Positions 20,923-26,218 of a stretch of DNA of 64,000 bases are shown piece by piece. Each line of letters starts with the position of its first letter. The stretch's first letter is position 1. The DNA lies in NCBI GenBank assembly GCA_028697145.1, contig JAQVFR010000004.1:3390-67389 (forward strand), written 5' to 3'. The notes under the pieces are model-generated. The model saw only the letters and a list, made by a program, of their open reading frames with translations, searched no databases and was not told where the DNA came from. The stretch is from Actinomycetota bacterium (GTDB lineage Bacteria; Actinomycetota; Geothermincolia; Geothermincolales; RBG-13-55-18). The translations under genes and the position numbers were made by a program.

Positions 20923-20997
20923 GGGCGTTTAGCTCAGCGGGAGAGCGCTGCCTTCACACGGCAGAGGTCATGGGTTCAAATCCCTTAACGCCCACCA
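20923..20997 (+). tRNA. tRNA-Val (anticodon CAC)
   Basis: 75 nt including an encoded CCA. Acceptor stem GGGCGTT/AACGCCC with discriminator A, D arm AGCTCAGCGGGAGAGC, anticodon stem CTGCC/GGCAG around loop TTCACAC (anticodon CAC), and T arm GGGTTCAAATCCC. The last 15 nt (20983-20997) recur at 23133-23147, marking the gene as an integration site. Confidence 0.96.
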
Positions 20998-21003
20998 ATT
21001 CTT

Positions 21004-21024
21004 AGGGCCTTTATGGCCCTTTTT
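21004..21024 (+). terminator. Terminator after tRNA-Val
   Basis: AGGGCC, loop TTTAT, GGCCCT, then TTTT. It begins 7 nt after the tRNA CCA, inside the inserted element. Confidence 0.75.
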
Positions 21025-21229
21025 CTTTGGATTGAATGGCTTGATATGGTTACATCATAGAAATGAGAAGGCATATCGTTAGGCTTGAAACGCTTCTTTT
21101 ACCTGCTGAGCGGTGCTCTGGTTGTCAGTTATGTGCTATAGACTTATCTTAAGGGCGAGGTCCATATTGGCTCGCAAAAGGGCATAAAGGAGACGAACAG
21201 ATTCAATAATTGAAAGATGGAGAGTCCGC

Positions 21230-22882
21230 ATGGATGAGATAACCCGCTGGTCGGGCATGGCAGAAGGCCAGTTCTTCGAGAGGAAGTCGGCCTACGACCG
21301 CTCTGGACCTAGGCCAAAGAGAAGAAACGCAAAGGATATCATCTCCGACATCGTCGAAACCCTTTCGGCCATGGCTAATGCCGATGGAGGAGAGTTGGTT
21401 CTGGGGATGGAGGACAATGGCACGGTAACCGGGGTGCCCCATCCGGAACGGACGGTTAAGGGATTTCTCGATGCTCCTCGAGATCCGAATCGTGTAAATC
21501 CTGGCCTTATCTACAGATACAGGGAAGCAATCGCGGACAGTGGCCACCTTCTACTGCATTTCAGGGTGGAGTGGAGCCCTCTTGTTCATCAATTGTCCGA
21601 CGGCAGGTATCTCTATAGGATGAGGGACTCGAACATGCCATTCGACGCACAAAAGATTTCGGCCCTAAAGTCCTCGAAAGCGCAAGGCCTGTTCGAGATG
21701 GTGTTTCCCCCGAGGGCCTTCATGAAGGACATAGACGCAGAGCTTGTCGATTCGCTTAATCTGGATCGCCTAAATCGGGAAACCACCATCGATCTCCTTG
21801 AGCGTTTTCGCCTGGTAGAGAGGCATAATGGTCACATCGCACCTAACCGTGCCTGCCTGCTTCTCTTCGGGAAAGACCCGACGAAATGGCATCCCCGCTG
21901 CGGTATCGACTTCGTGCGCTGGGGGGGAACGGAGAGGAAAGGTGGCGCTGAACTCAATATCGAGAAGCGTGTACGTATCGAAGCTCCGCTTGCCGTACTT
22001 CCCAAACAGGCCTTCGATACCATCAAGCCGTTCATCCGTGAAAGGCAGCAGCTCGTGGATCTATTCTTCACTGAGCGGCTCGAATATCCCACGTTCGCCT
22101 GGCAGGAAGCTCTCATAAACGCCATCGCGCACCGCGATTACAGTATACAGGGAGCCCCTATAGAGGTTTGGATGTTCGACGACAGGATGGAGATTAAAAG
22201 CATGGGGCCGCCCCCCGAACCGGTCACGGTTGAGGCCTTGAGCCGCGGTGAGCATTTACACCTTTCCAGGAACCCTATAATCGTGCGCGTTCTTGCGGAA
22301 CTCGGATACATGCGTGACCTGGGCGAGGGTATTCCACGCATGTTCTCGGAGATGGAAAGCCAGGGTTATTATCCTCCTGTTTTCGACCTGGTGGGCGGTG
22401 CCAACTTTCGCGTGATCCTCAGAAACCAACCTATATATGACCAAGAGACCGTGGAGTGGTTGAGAAGATATGCTGAGTTTGATTTAACTGGCGACCAGAA
22501 GAGGCTCCTCGCCTTTGCCCACGCTCACGGGGACCGGTTTACCAGCAAGGATTATCAGAAACTCACCGAATTGGACGTATACAAGGCCTCGCTTTCGATA
22601 AAGGCTATGGTCAGGAAAAACATAGTTCGTTCTACCAGCAAAGGAAGCAGGGTCTACGAACTCGTTGAAACGCCAGGTGAGCATGAGAAATCACCGGAAA
22701 CCCTCTTGTTGCTCCTGCCTTTGCTTAAGGAGAGGGACATCTCAAACCAGGACATAAGGGATGCCCTGGGGATATCCAGACCTACCGCGACACGTATCGC
22801 CGGAGAGTTGTGTGCCAAAGGTTGGCTTGAAAAGAGCGGCAGCGGGAGATGGACGCGGTATCGACTGGCGAGGGCACTATGA
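21230..22882 (+). CDS. AlbA_2/Schlafen-like domain ATP-binding protein (COG2865)
   Basis: 550 aa. The N-terminal AlbA_2 (Schlafen-type) domain has EGQFFERKSAYD (residues about 11-22) and SAMANADGGELVLGMEDNG (about 46-64). The middle holds an ATPase-like segment with ALINAIAHRDYS and LGEGIPRMFSEME. The C-terminus has one or two winged helices (LTGDQKRLLAFAH; SNQDIRDALGISRPTATRIA). These COG2865 proteins are often called RecG-like or transcriptional regulators and recur in defence and mobile islands. It is the sole gene of the tRNA-Val insertion, with lower GC than its neighbours. Its TGA stop lies inside the first 72-bp repeat. A defence or regulatory role is inference. Confidence 0.82.
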   Translation: MDEITRWSGMAEGQFFERKSAYDRSGPRPKRRNAKDIISDIVETLSAMANADGGELVLGMEDNGTVTGVPHPERTVKGFLDAPRDPNRVNPGLIYRYREAIADSGHLLLHFRVEWSPLVHQLSDGRYLYRMRDSNMPFDAQKISALKSSKAQGLFEMVFPPRAFMKDIDAELVDSLNLDRLNRETTIDLLERFRLVERHNGHIAPNRACLLLFGKDPTKWHPRCGIDFVRWGGTERKGGAELNIEKRVRIEAPLAVLPKQAFDTIKPFIRERQQLVDLFFTERLEYPTFAWQEALINAIAHRDYSIQGAPIEVWMFDDRMEIKSMGPPPEPVTVEALSRGEHLHLSRNPIIVRVLAELGYMRDLGEGIPRMFSEMESQGYYPPVFDLVGGANFRVILRNQPIYDQETVEWLRRYAEFDLTGDQKRLLAFAHAHGDRFTSKDYQKLTELDVYKASLSIKAMVRKNIVRSTSKGSRVYELVETPGEHEKSPETLLLLLPLLKERDISNQDIRDALGISRPTATRIAGELCAKGWLEKSGSGRWTRYRLARAL

Positions 22883-23069
22883 ATCAGCCTAGGCGTAGAA
22901 AATCCGTGCGGGAAGCTGATTCATAAAGCGGTTTGGGTGATTCATAGGAATACCAAGAACAGGCTGGGAAAACAGTAATTACAATTCAACGGAGTCGCTA
23001 TGAATCAGCCTAGGCGTAGAAAATCCGTGCGGGAAGCTGATTCATAAAGCGGTTTGGGTGATTCATAGG
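22877..23069. repeat. Two 72-bp perfect direct repeats with internal inverted repeats
   Basis: 22877-22948 and 22998-23069 are identical, separated by 49 bp. Each contains TATGAATCAGC near its start and the exact reverse complement GCTGATTCATA in the middle. A third element, TGATTCATAG near the end, is also complementary to the first 10 bases (CTATGAATCA), so two alternative hairpins are possible. The first copy includes the stop codon of the AlbA_2 gene. The location beside attR suits a recombination-accessory or replication site, or a structured transcript end. Confidence 0.9.
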
Positions 23070-23132
23070 GAGACACGGTAGTGCCTAGATTGCCTCCCGT
23101 AGGATGACAAGTGGGGTAAGGTCTTCCAAGGG

Positions 23133-23147
23133 CCTTAACGCCCACCA
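23133..23147. other. attR-like duplication of the tRNA-Val 3' end
   Basis: CCTTAACGCCCACCA repeats the last 15 nt of tRNA-Val (20983-20997) without the rest of the tRNA. A strong hairpin follows 10 nt later. Confidence 0.75.
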
Positions 23148-23157
23148 GGGCTATAGA

Positions 23158-23182
23158 AGCCGGGCCCCCGCCCGGCTTTCTC
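23158..23182. terminator. GC-rich hairpin terminator after attR
   Basis: AGCCGGGC, loop CCCC, GCCCGGCT, then TTCTCTT. It can end transcription from the left and lies against the stop of the minus-strand RelE-like gene. It may be the original terminator of tRNA-Val before insertion. Confidence 0.65.
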
Positions 23183-23437
23183 TTAGTCTCGATAAACGTC
23201 TCTCCTGTGGCCGATGCGCAGAACCAGTATCCCATCCACAGTCTTGGTATATATGACCCTGTAATCGCCGATCCTGTATCTGTATAGCCCCTGGAATGTT
23301 CCGCTCAGGGCGGAACCCTTATCGGGATCCTTCGCGAGATCCCCTTCTATTCTGCTCAGGATCTTCTTCGCCTCGGTCTTGTCTATCTTCTTCAGATCCT
23401 TCTCGACGGAGGCTTTGTATACTACCCTATAGACCAA
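23183..23437 (-). CDS. RelE/ParE-family toxin
   Basis: 84 aa. RelE fold features: VYRVVYKASVEKDLKKIDK at the N-terminus, LSGTFQGLYRYRIGDYRVIY, and LVLRIGHRRDVYRD at the C-terminus, with the basic/aromatic residues typical of ribosome-dependent mRNA interferases. Overlaps the upstream antitoxin gene by 11 nt (antitoxin first). Acts in the cytoplasm and is neutralised by the RHH partner. It lies just outside the attR copy of the tRNA element and is also of low GC. Confidence 0.88.
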   Translation of the reverse strand: MVYRVVYKASVEKDLKKIDKTEAKKILSRIEGDLAKDPDKGSALSGTFQGLYRYRIGDYRVIYTKTVDGILVLRIGHRRDVYRD

Positions 23438-23645
23438 GCCGGCTCCTTAGCTCCGAACTGCTTATCAGTTCATCATCCTTATCAAGGAGCCGGTCGAGAG
23501 CCACGCGGTAATCGCCATACTCCGCAATATAGGTCATTATGGCCTCATTGATAAGGAAGGTCCTGGATCGCTCCGTCGACTTGGACAGCTCTTCCAGGTC
23601 CCTCAATAATTGTTCATCCAGCCTGATGGAGATCGCCTTAGCCAT
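23427..23645 (-). CDS. Ribbon-helix-helix antitoxin (RelB/CopG type)
   Basis: 72 aa. The N-terminal RHH DNA-binding motif AKAISIRLDEQLLRDLEEL (residues about 2-20) is followed by RSRTFLINEAIMTYI, then a C-terminal toxin-binding tail (RLLDKDDELISSSELR). The start is preceded by GGAGG. It probably represses its own promoter through the TGTAT repeats at 23663-23700, assisted by the toxin. Confidence 0.87.
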   Translation of the reverse strand: MAKAISIRLDEQLLRDLEELSKSTERSRTFLINEAIMTYIAEYGDYRVALDRLLDKDDELISSSELRSRLGL

Positions 23646-23662
23646 CTTATACCTCCGATTTC

Positions 23663-23700
23663 TGTATGTATCCTATGTATGGTATTGTATCACATGTATG
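23663..23700 (-). promoter_or_regulatory. Putative RHH operator with phased TGTAT repeats
   Basis: On the plus strand TGTAT occurs at 23663, 23667, 23676, 23686 and 23695. The last four are spaced 9-10 bp, one helical turn, directly upstream of the antitoxin start. Such phasing is what stacked RHH dimers need. Confidence 0.5.
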
Positions 23701-23743
23701 CTAGTTCCATCCACTGACAACATTCTGCTCTCTAGCGGTGACA

Positions 23744-23950
23744 TCATTTAAATGAATCTAGCTGCTGCAGGTAAAGACCCCGGATGCCGTCCAGCATCTG
23801 CACGTAGTTCTTGTCCAGGTAGATGAAGGGGCCGGGTGATATACGGAAGTGGCCGCCGCCGGCCGCGATCGCCCTGCGGATGCTCTCCTCGAGCTGCGGT
23901 GGCATCTTCTTCCAGGCACCGCAGACGATCCGCGGCCTGCCCTCGCCCGC
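23744..23950 (-). pseudogene. C-terminal remnant of an unidentified protein gene
   Basis: A minus-strand frame ending at the TGA at 23744-23746 encodes a plausible protein end: RIVCGAWKKMPPQLEES, AAGGGHFRISPGPFIYLDKN, YVQMLDGIRGLYLQQLDSFK. The composition returns to genome-typical GC here. No start or upstream portion is present: the frame runs into the 3' end of plsC. Probably the tail of a gene lost when the neighbouring low-GC DNA was acquired. The family is not recognised. Confidence 0.35.
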
Positions 23951-24829: not shown

Positions 24830-26218
24830 TCAGCTCCCCCACAGAAGGGAGAGGACCGCCGCCTCGTCCAGGCGGCATCCCGCGAGGACGCGGGCCGCGG
24901 AACGGTTCAGCTCCCGGGGCAGGGAGAATGCGGCGCAGTTGACCCTCCCCTTGTCCAGGAGGACGTGGCAGCAGACCTCGCCGTCGGGACCCTCGCAGCG
25001 CCCGAAACCCTCGCCCTTGCCCCCGCGTCCCCTCTTCGTGAGCAGGGGCGCTTCAAGCGGCTCGGCGAGCACGCGCTGCGCCAATTCGAGCGACGACGCG
25101 GCCTCTCCCGCCCTGATGGCAAGAAGGCGGCGCAGCATTCCGGTGCCCTCCGGGGGCGCCGGGCTCTCCCAGCCCGCCGCCTCGTAAACGCCGGGCTCCT
25201 CTCTGCGCGCGTCCCGCTCCAGGCCGGCCGCGCGCGCCAGGGGTCCCACCCAGGCGGACCCCTCGGCCTCGACGCCCAATCCCCGCAGGCGCCTCTCCGC
25301 CCACCCCGGCGCGGTTAGGGAAGCGGCCCGGCGCGATAACTCTTTCCATGCCGCGGCGATGCCGGTGAGCTTGCGCATGACCGCCGCTTTTTCCCCCACA
25401 GGGAAGTCCTCCCTGATCCCGCCCGGCATTGCCCAGCCCGCTCCCGGGGGACGGCCCTGCCACTCCTCCAGTGCGGCCACCAGATCGAGGCGCAGGCCGT
25501 CGCATGCGGCGGCGGCGCGCCGTTTCCCCAGGATGGAGGCGAACTCGCTTATCCACGCCAGGTGAGCCTGCGCCCTCGCCAGCTCCAGGAGCGCCGTACG
25601 CAAGGCCACCGCGGCCTCCGGCACCTTCATCCCCCGCGCCTCCTCCAGGGCCTGCGCGAAGGAGAGGTGGAGGGCGGCCCCCTCGTCACCCGTTTCCCTC
25701 TCCAGGATGACGGAAGCCTGGCCGGCCCTGGCCCCCAGCAGGGCACCCTGAGGGCAATCCCTCCATGCATCGCGCACCCGCCGTATGTAGCCCCCTTCGA
25801 CCTCGAGGAGGAGCCCCGCGCGCACGAGCGAGTATGCGTGGCCAGGCGCATCCCACCGCTGGTCCTCCCCCCCGTACAGCAGCTCGACCCACCTGGAGGC
25901 GGCGGGGAAATACCTGGCCGCCTCCGGGAGCAGGCTCTTCCCTCCGCCCGCCCTGAGGTGCAGGGTCTCGTTATCCCTCGGATGCGAGAAATGCAGGGTT
26001 TCACCCCTGCCGGGACAGAGGTCCGCCATGACCAGGCGCAGCCCCTGGTCCGCCAGGAATTCGAGGCGGGCTCTGTGGTCCCCGCCCACGTCCTCAAGCC
26101 ACACCCGCCGGGCCGGCTCCAGCCGCGACCAGTCCATGCCCTCCCTCGGGAGGAGGTCCAGCTGACCTCTCGGCATCCGGCTGCCGCGGTCCCTCTCCAC
26201 GTTCTTTGCCGCCGCCAC
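24830..26218 (-). CDS. NuoD/HyfG-like large subunit without metal-binding cysteines
   Basis: 462 aa. The fold is recognisable from conserved blocks of complex I 49-kDa/group 4 hydrogenase large subunits: LHLSFAQALEEARGMKVPE, ALLELARAQAHLAWISEFAS, PGGIREDFPVGEKA, and VGPLARAAGLERDARREEP. Neither CxxC pair that binds NiFe in hydrogenases is present: none precedes ALHLSF, and the C-terminus ends SLLWGS without a DPCxxC motif. It therefore cannot be a NiFe hydrogenase, and no quinone-site motif can be assigned. GTG start directly after the stop of the antiporter-like gene; last gene of a three-gene set. Confidence 0.65.
   Translation of the reverse strand: MAAAKNVERDRGSRMPRGQLDLLPREGMDWSRLEPARRVWLEDVGGDHRARLEFLADQGLRLVMADLCPGRGETLHFSHPRDNETLHLRAGGGKSLLPEAARYFPAASRWVELLYGGEDQRWDAPGHAYSLVRAGLLLEVEGGYIRRVRDAWRDCPQGALLGARAGQASVILERETGDEGAALHLSFAQALEEARGMKVPEAAVALRTALLELARAQAHLAWISEFASILGKRRAAAACDGLRLDLVAALEEWQGRPPGAGWAMPGGIREDFPVGEKAAVMRKLTGIAAAWKELSRRAASLTAPGWAERRLRGLGVEAEGSAWVGPLARAAGLERDARREEPGVYEAAGWESPAPPEGTGMLRRLLAIRAGEAASSLELAQRVLAEPLEAPLLTKRGRGGKGEGFGRCEGPDGEVCCHVLLDKGRVNCAAFSLPRELNRSAARVLAGCRLDEAAVLSLLWGS

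Follow-up and report, generated by a model that had tools for sequence, protein, structure and literature searches.

A probable array of integrase-less cassettes behind tRNA-Val in Geothermincolia

Integron cassettes and CALIN arrays are made of short gene modules, many of them toxin-antitoxin genes, that are shuffled between genomes and of which some carry no ORF. The pdif modules of Acinetobacter and IMEX are also rich in toxin-antitoxin genes, and are moved without a recombinase of their own. CIMEs and accretion arrays consist of att-flanked units without genes for integration or transfer, stacked behind the 3' end of a gene (PMC5704250). The ssrA islands of Dehalococcoides stand in tandem and are delimited by a 20-bp repeat of the 3' end of the RNA gene, which is preceded by a conserved motif; an integration module is absent from some of them, 16 have a module with the serine recombinase DsiB, and their cargo is rdhA (PMC3146451).

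The locus described here lies in a window of 64,000 nucleotides (contig JAQVFR010000004.1, positions 3,390 to 67,389) from a member of the class Geothermincolia, in which an insert follows a tRNA-Val gene. This insert is quite probably a non-autonomous cassette in a tRNA-Val array, and the existence of a cassette array is well supported. The arrays share with CIMEs the attL/attR flanks at a gene 3' end and the absence of an integrase from the array contigs, but no related ICE or IME using the arm of the array site was found here, and the units are modules of 0.09-4 kb whose ends are conserved and whose homologues occur in several genera, which makes their interpretation as remnants of larger elements less natural. 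The tandem arrangement, the repeat of an RNA-gene 3' end, the motif upstream of it and the lack of an integrase in some islands are found in the ssrA islands as well, whereas the arrays target tRNA-Val and carry toxin-antitoxin-like cargo, and no integrase was seen in any unit. As in integrons and CALIN arrays, the modules are short, include many toxin-antitoxin genes, are shuffled, and in some cases have no ORF; unlike there, the site consists of a tRNA 3' end plus a linear arm and gives no attC-like folding signal, no IntI was found, and the array starts at a tRNA gene and not at attI. The resemblance to pdif modules and IMEX lies in toxin-antitoxin-rich modules that lack their own recombinase, but the site is unlike the dif-like sequence of the genome. 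The arrays are a variant of the integrase-less att-flanked arrays represented by CIMEs and ssrA islands, with an integron-like working that goes without those defining features of integrons that were tested. No description of such a tRNA-Val cassette system was found in the literature.

Two units behind tRNA-Val(CAC)

The target gene, tRNA-Val(CAC), lies at 20923-20997 (+; ARAGORN and Rfam RF00005), and Rfam at gathering level matched only the tRNA and nothing else. Its last 15 nt, here called the core (CCTTAACGCCCACCA; 20983-20997, +), recur exactly at 23133-23147 (+), at a spacing of 2150 bp, in agreement with the 2.15 kb given by an earlier sequence-only reading of this DNA. A pattern scan of the genome to which the window belongs (G000) gave seven exact copies of the 15-mer, two of them inside tRNA genes, and no match for the reversed control pattern. 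The same reading had described a terminator proper to the insert after the tRNA and a single gene between the two copies, and both were recovered: the terminator scan placed the former at 21004-21025 (+), in a left end of A-like type (AGGGCC..GGCCCTTTTT) that resembles those at tRNA-Val(CAC) of G003 and tRNA-Val(TAC) of G009, and the latter occupies 21230-22882 (+). The second strong terminator which it had placed after the right copy is present as a GC-rich hairpin (GAAGCCGGGC..GCCCGGCTTTCTC) just 3' of that copy, but is absent from the terminator-scan list. The lower GC attributed to the insert is also seen, with approximately 0.50-0.56 inside, and a value near 0.52 for the insert between the two copies, against 0.62-0.68 in the left flank, but values of at least 0.64 are reached only from approximately 23750 rightward, so that the low-GC stretch extends beyond the right end of the insert at 23147. 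The proposal of a lone mini-island proved too narrow, since the insert is one unit of an array and the genome has another such array. Two units lie within the window, the AlbA_2 unit (20998-23147) and, immediately to the right of it, a truncated ParE/RHH unit (23148 to approximately 23772).

The 550-aa product of the gene in unit 1 has domain matches to SLFN_AlbA_2, HATPase_c_4 and MarR_2 (a MarR-type winged helix), which is the architecture of the COG2865-type AlbA_2 regulators and confirms the AlbA_2/ATPase-like/winged-helix assignment made earlier. Its phage and plasmid homologues are 24-33% identical among the matches listed, and it has one relative in the PDB, 3lmm. This protein is the cargo of unit 1, and is most likely a DNA-binding regulator or a module for stability or defence. 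Its company in the arrays consists of toxin-antitoxin-like genes, and a putative defence role is possible. A remnant of 50 aa with 84% identity lies on contig C1 of the same genome (C1:42645-42791). A decayed second copy on C1 (L044:2674-2792; 122 nt, 90% nucleotide identity) lies near the position that corresponds to an arm-plus-core site of G001. The repeat first given as 72 bp is a real repeat pair, but its length is 77 nt (22877-22953 and 22998-23074, spanning 22877-23074, +; repeat comparison). It recurs elsewhere as part of a right-end block of approximately 300 bp that is common to the PIN-like cassettes of G002 and G012, and the AlbA_2 unit therefore looks chimeric.

Unit 2 begins with a left end of type B (GRGCnATAGAAGCCGGGC..GCCCGGCTTT; 23148-23180, +; site alignment), followed by a ParE-type toxin gene (23183-23437, -; Pfam PF05016) and a ribbon-helix-helix antitoxin-like gene (23427-23645, -; an ORF whose homologue in G009 matches RHH_1 by Pfam). 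The remainder of the unit (23646-23772) lacks the right-hand site, which is present in G012, G009 and G007. Over 643 aligned bp, unit 2 is 91% identical at the nucleotide level to G012:C73, while the ribonucleotide reductase genes of the window and of G009, which belongs to the same genus as G012, reach the lower value of 84%. At the broken right end, a 53-aa remnant (23744-23905, -) resembles by eye part of a 294-aa protein in unit 2 of G001 (L093).

The second array of the genome probably lies at tRNA-Val(TAC), with the 15-mer at C1:50801, 50890, 53418 and 53508 and a fifth copy with one mismatch. The copies run toward the end of the contig, which terminates in the core, and contig C25 starts with the second tRNA-Val (TAC). 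From these matching contig ends of the assembly, C1 presumably continues C25.

The compound site and the units that it delimits

The right core copy is preceded by a conserved arm of approximately 45 bp (23087-23132, +; consensus ..AGGACGACAAGTGGGG..AGGTCTTCCAaGgg from the alignment), which the earlier reading had overlooked, and arm and core make up a compound site of approximately 60 bp that is followed by a conserved terminator. In a site alignment of approximately 30 places, two types of conserved left end, each bearing a terminator, account for most of what follows the core: A (AATAACATAGGGCC..GGCCCTTTTT) and B (GAGCAATAGAAGCCGGGC..GCCCGGCTTT). Arm plus core is present in nine of the 31 genomes of the class, with E-values as low as 1e-21 in genomes other than G000; all nine are among the 15 genomes of the window's family, belong to four genera, and bear arrays. 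The sites usually lie downstream of tRNA-Val, some are away from any tRNA (G007:C8, G012:C73), several are degenerate, and several units are truncated, including unit 2 of the window and the AlbA_2 remnant on C1. Scanning a genome collection with the site pattern returned Ca. Solincola daggyaiensis and several actinobacterial MAGs, with matches that include contigs of G001, G002, G009, G011 and G012; six further matches in other phyla or orders, without arm context, were read as chance. Ca. Solincola is assigned to Ca. Geothermincolaceae, probably the family of the window. No viral contig matched the site pattern, and searching phage and plasmid records with the site gave no match.

The sites delimit units of 0.09-4 kb and some longer ones; certain large ones (6.5 kb in G001) resemble chromosomal blocks placed between sites by chance. 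Units with homologues are of AbiE-like, ParE/RHH, Fic, Doc and PIN-like types, and homologous units have sharp ends at the site, yet are found behind different tRNA genes or at different array positions between genomes. An AbiE-like pair of 2189, 2189 and 2191 bp occupies positions 4, 2 and 1 in the arrays of G009, G012 and G003, respectively, which represent two genera. A Doc-type unit, so labelled from reading its sequence given that the Doc profile match came from a G012 unit, is first behind tRNA-Val(TAC) in G009 (966 bp) and first behind tRNA-Val(CAC) in G003 (971 bp), with 78% identity between the two. The ParE/RHH units of G009 and G007 measure 792 and 799 bp, Fic units occur in G000 and G001, and PIN-like units, recognized by eye and with no match in Pfam or NCBIfam, in G012 and G002. 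Several units are 84-92 bp long and lack an ORF. Strong terminators are found in the units, and the genes are often oriented against the array. In G002, the first unit after tRNA-Val(CAC) (L094) contains an ORF that, judging by its sequence, resembles a group II intron reverse transcriptase and lies downstream of the tRNA and ahead of the AbiE-like pair.

Empty tRNA-Val(CAC) sites with a single core, the state predicted for relatives, were found in G005, G009 and G012, where the orthologue of the window gene at 24830-26218 lies only 190-290 bp from the tRNA; in G003, the 971-bp unit sits in the space between tRNA-Val(CAC) and that orthologue. With empty sites and variable contents at one locus, the idea of an integrated element that lacks its own recombinase and is delimited by the 3' end of the tRNA and the copy of that end is supported. 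The two outcomes named in advance as speaking against it, an AlbA_2 gene fixed in all relatives and a second 15-mer kept without the insertion, were not seen. Comparison of 13 CAC loci of the family showed that all four with units have a tRNA that ends in CCYTARCG, and that all nine without units have other sequences. This association, which is confounded with phylogeny, may reflect target specificity or an element that supplies the tRNA end.

The search for a recombinase and the possibility of decay

No tyrosine recombinase (PF00589) was matched on any array contig in the family, and no transfer genes were seen among the unit ORFs. Given that no candidate was found in the arrays, the recombinase presumably works in trans, was lost, or is of a family beyond those searched. 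A serine recombinase was rejected as the common enzyme, with PF00239 matched in one of 12 genomes; this sole match is a 513-aa large serine recombinase (L154:557-2098, G001:C41) that ends beside a tRNA-Asn. The occurrence of IS200/605-type (PF01797) and IS110-type (PF01548) transposases does not track the arrays. The proposal of a satellite mobilised in trans is largely supported as regards an integrase-free element moved in trans, but its phage-satellite part found no support: no gene for packaging or helper dependence was seen in the units examined, and the AlbA_2 gene is the only one in unit 1.

It is possible, although we regard it as doubtful, that the units are decayed, CIME-like remains of integrative elements with a tRNA-Val integrase, and that the arrays accreted and are now immobile. 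The absence of a recombinase from the arrays, the degenerate sites and the truncated units (unit 2 and the AlbA_2 remnant on C1) all speak for such decay, and there is precedent in islands without an integration module (PMC3146451) and in the definition of CIMEs (PMC5704250). A 365-aa tyrosine integrase directly adjoins tRNA-Val(TAC) in G012 (G012:C16, L106:1497-2754), and an integrase fragment lies beside the same tRNA in G006. However, the arm profile has no match at either integrase locus; the G012 enzyme was rejected as the mover of the units, and belongs to another element that also uses this tRNA gene. The near-identical lengths and intact ends of homologous units in several genera also suggest that the units move as such.

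Strand exchange at the core

In G011, a segment of approximately 6.1 kb is inverted with reciprocal junctions (L096:5538 and 11625) between two cores. At one junction, the left part of the tRNA runs through TTAA into the arm in reverse complement; the other forms a perfect 22-bp palindrome, TGGTGGGCG-TTAA-CGCCCACCA. Computed re-inversion restores the normal order of sites. Given that the flanks differ on both sides, the stretch in common is TTAA only, which is evidence against recombination by homology and locates the strand exchange in the core. The inversion, a single case from one metagenome assembly, is best explained by conservative site-specific recombination. Site-specific recombination at TTAA is likely, and the TTAA of the core (left copy of the window, 20983-20997) would be the strand-exchange region.

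This bears on the view that nothing here is mobile, and that tandem duplication of the tRNA end followed by homologous recombination between the repeats shuffles the flanking genes. The length of the sites would permit some homologous recombination, most of them are in direct orientation, and allelic or homologous exchange between the sites of approximately 60 bp could shuffle units. As a full account it is improbable, since the homology at the G011 junctions is confined to TTAA, a duplicated tRNA end would not bring the same arm in four genera, and there are empty sites as well as different units at one locus.

In the cassette mechanism that we favour, a circular unit ending in arm and core would have entered by recombination at the 3' end of tRNA-Val, with a site-specific recombinase exchanging strands within the TTAA of the core. 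Such an insertion would not disrupt the tRNA, but would give it a new terminator and place a second copy of its last 15 nt at the distal end of the unit. As every distal end brings a core of its own, more units could insert behind the same tRNA, and their stacking would produce an array of short units whose cargo would be mainly toxin-antitoxin-like or regulatory genes.

Whether the host enzymes XerC/XerD could move the units via a dif-like site, as for pdif modules and IMEX, was also considered. Every array-bearing genome has at least two tyrosine recombinases (exactly two, XerC/XerD-like, in G002, G005 and G011), and the modules resemble pdif modules in being rich in toxin-antitoxin genes. 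Two of the enzymes of G000 match best XerD (slightly above the equivalog cut-off) and XerC (slightly below it), and this genome also has an integrase adjoining tRNA-Tyr. Nonetheless, nearly all array-free relatives have such recombinases too, and the similarity of the sites to the dif-like sequence of the genome (ACCGCCGATAATGTATCTTATGTAAAGT) averages 12.3 of 28, versus 12.5 for shuffled dif, which leaves this explanation quite unlikely. Even less credible are integron-like arrays, that is, cassette clusters without integrase whose site is an attC-type folded single strand: the short one- or two-gene units, the toxin-antitoxin-rich cargo, the array arrangement, the ORF-less units of 89-92 bp and the inverted segments GTGGGG..TAAGG / CCTTAACGCCCAC in many sites recall them, but 28 sites, folded as DNA, do not exceed their shuffles (mean z -0.5), four tyrosine recombinases that were scanned (three of the own genome and one of G012) are all far below the integron-integrase cut-offs, and the units have strong terminators and genes that often run against the array direction.

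If the units of the cassette array move singly, they would constitute a second architecture besides integrons for stockpiling genes of toxin-antitoxin and defence-like kinds behind a single fixed site, one that would work without a visible recombinase. The defined site of approximately 60 bp and the predicted crossover make testable the question of who moves integrase-less islands. Tentatively, and with the odds rather against it, one may go further and envisage a cassette-capture system distinct from integrons, with a core from the tRNA 3' end and a dedicated arm, in which exchange at the palindromic TTAA would be carried out by a recombinase encoded outside the arrays that either falls outside the expected integrase families or is a host enzyme at a non-dif site; such a system would spread toxin-antitoxin-like modules among Geothermincolia, and the analogous GTGGGG..T-arm..core repeats seen behind tRNA-Val in G019, G020, G023 and G024 would be its empty cassettes.

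These four genomes belong to other families of the class. Downstream of their tRNA-Val(CAC) lie repeats of 99-230 bp in which no genes are evident; each repeat closes with the 3' end of the local tRNA itself, mostly with GTGGGG before it. The repeats may represent empty units from a related system. In G023 (L116:2754-3464), three near-tandem units of 196-220 bp without evident genes follow tRNA-Val(CAC), and each of them ends in GTGGGGTGGTTCAAATCCCCCAACGCCCACCA and contains an inverted T-arm-like stretch.
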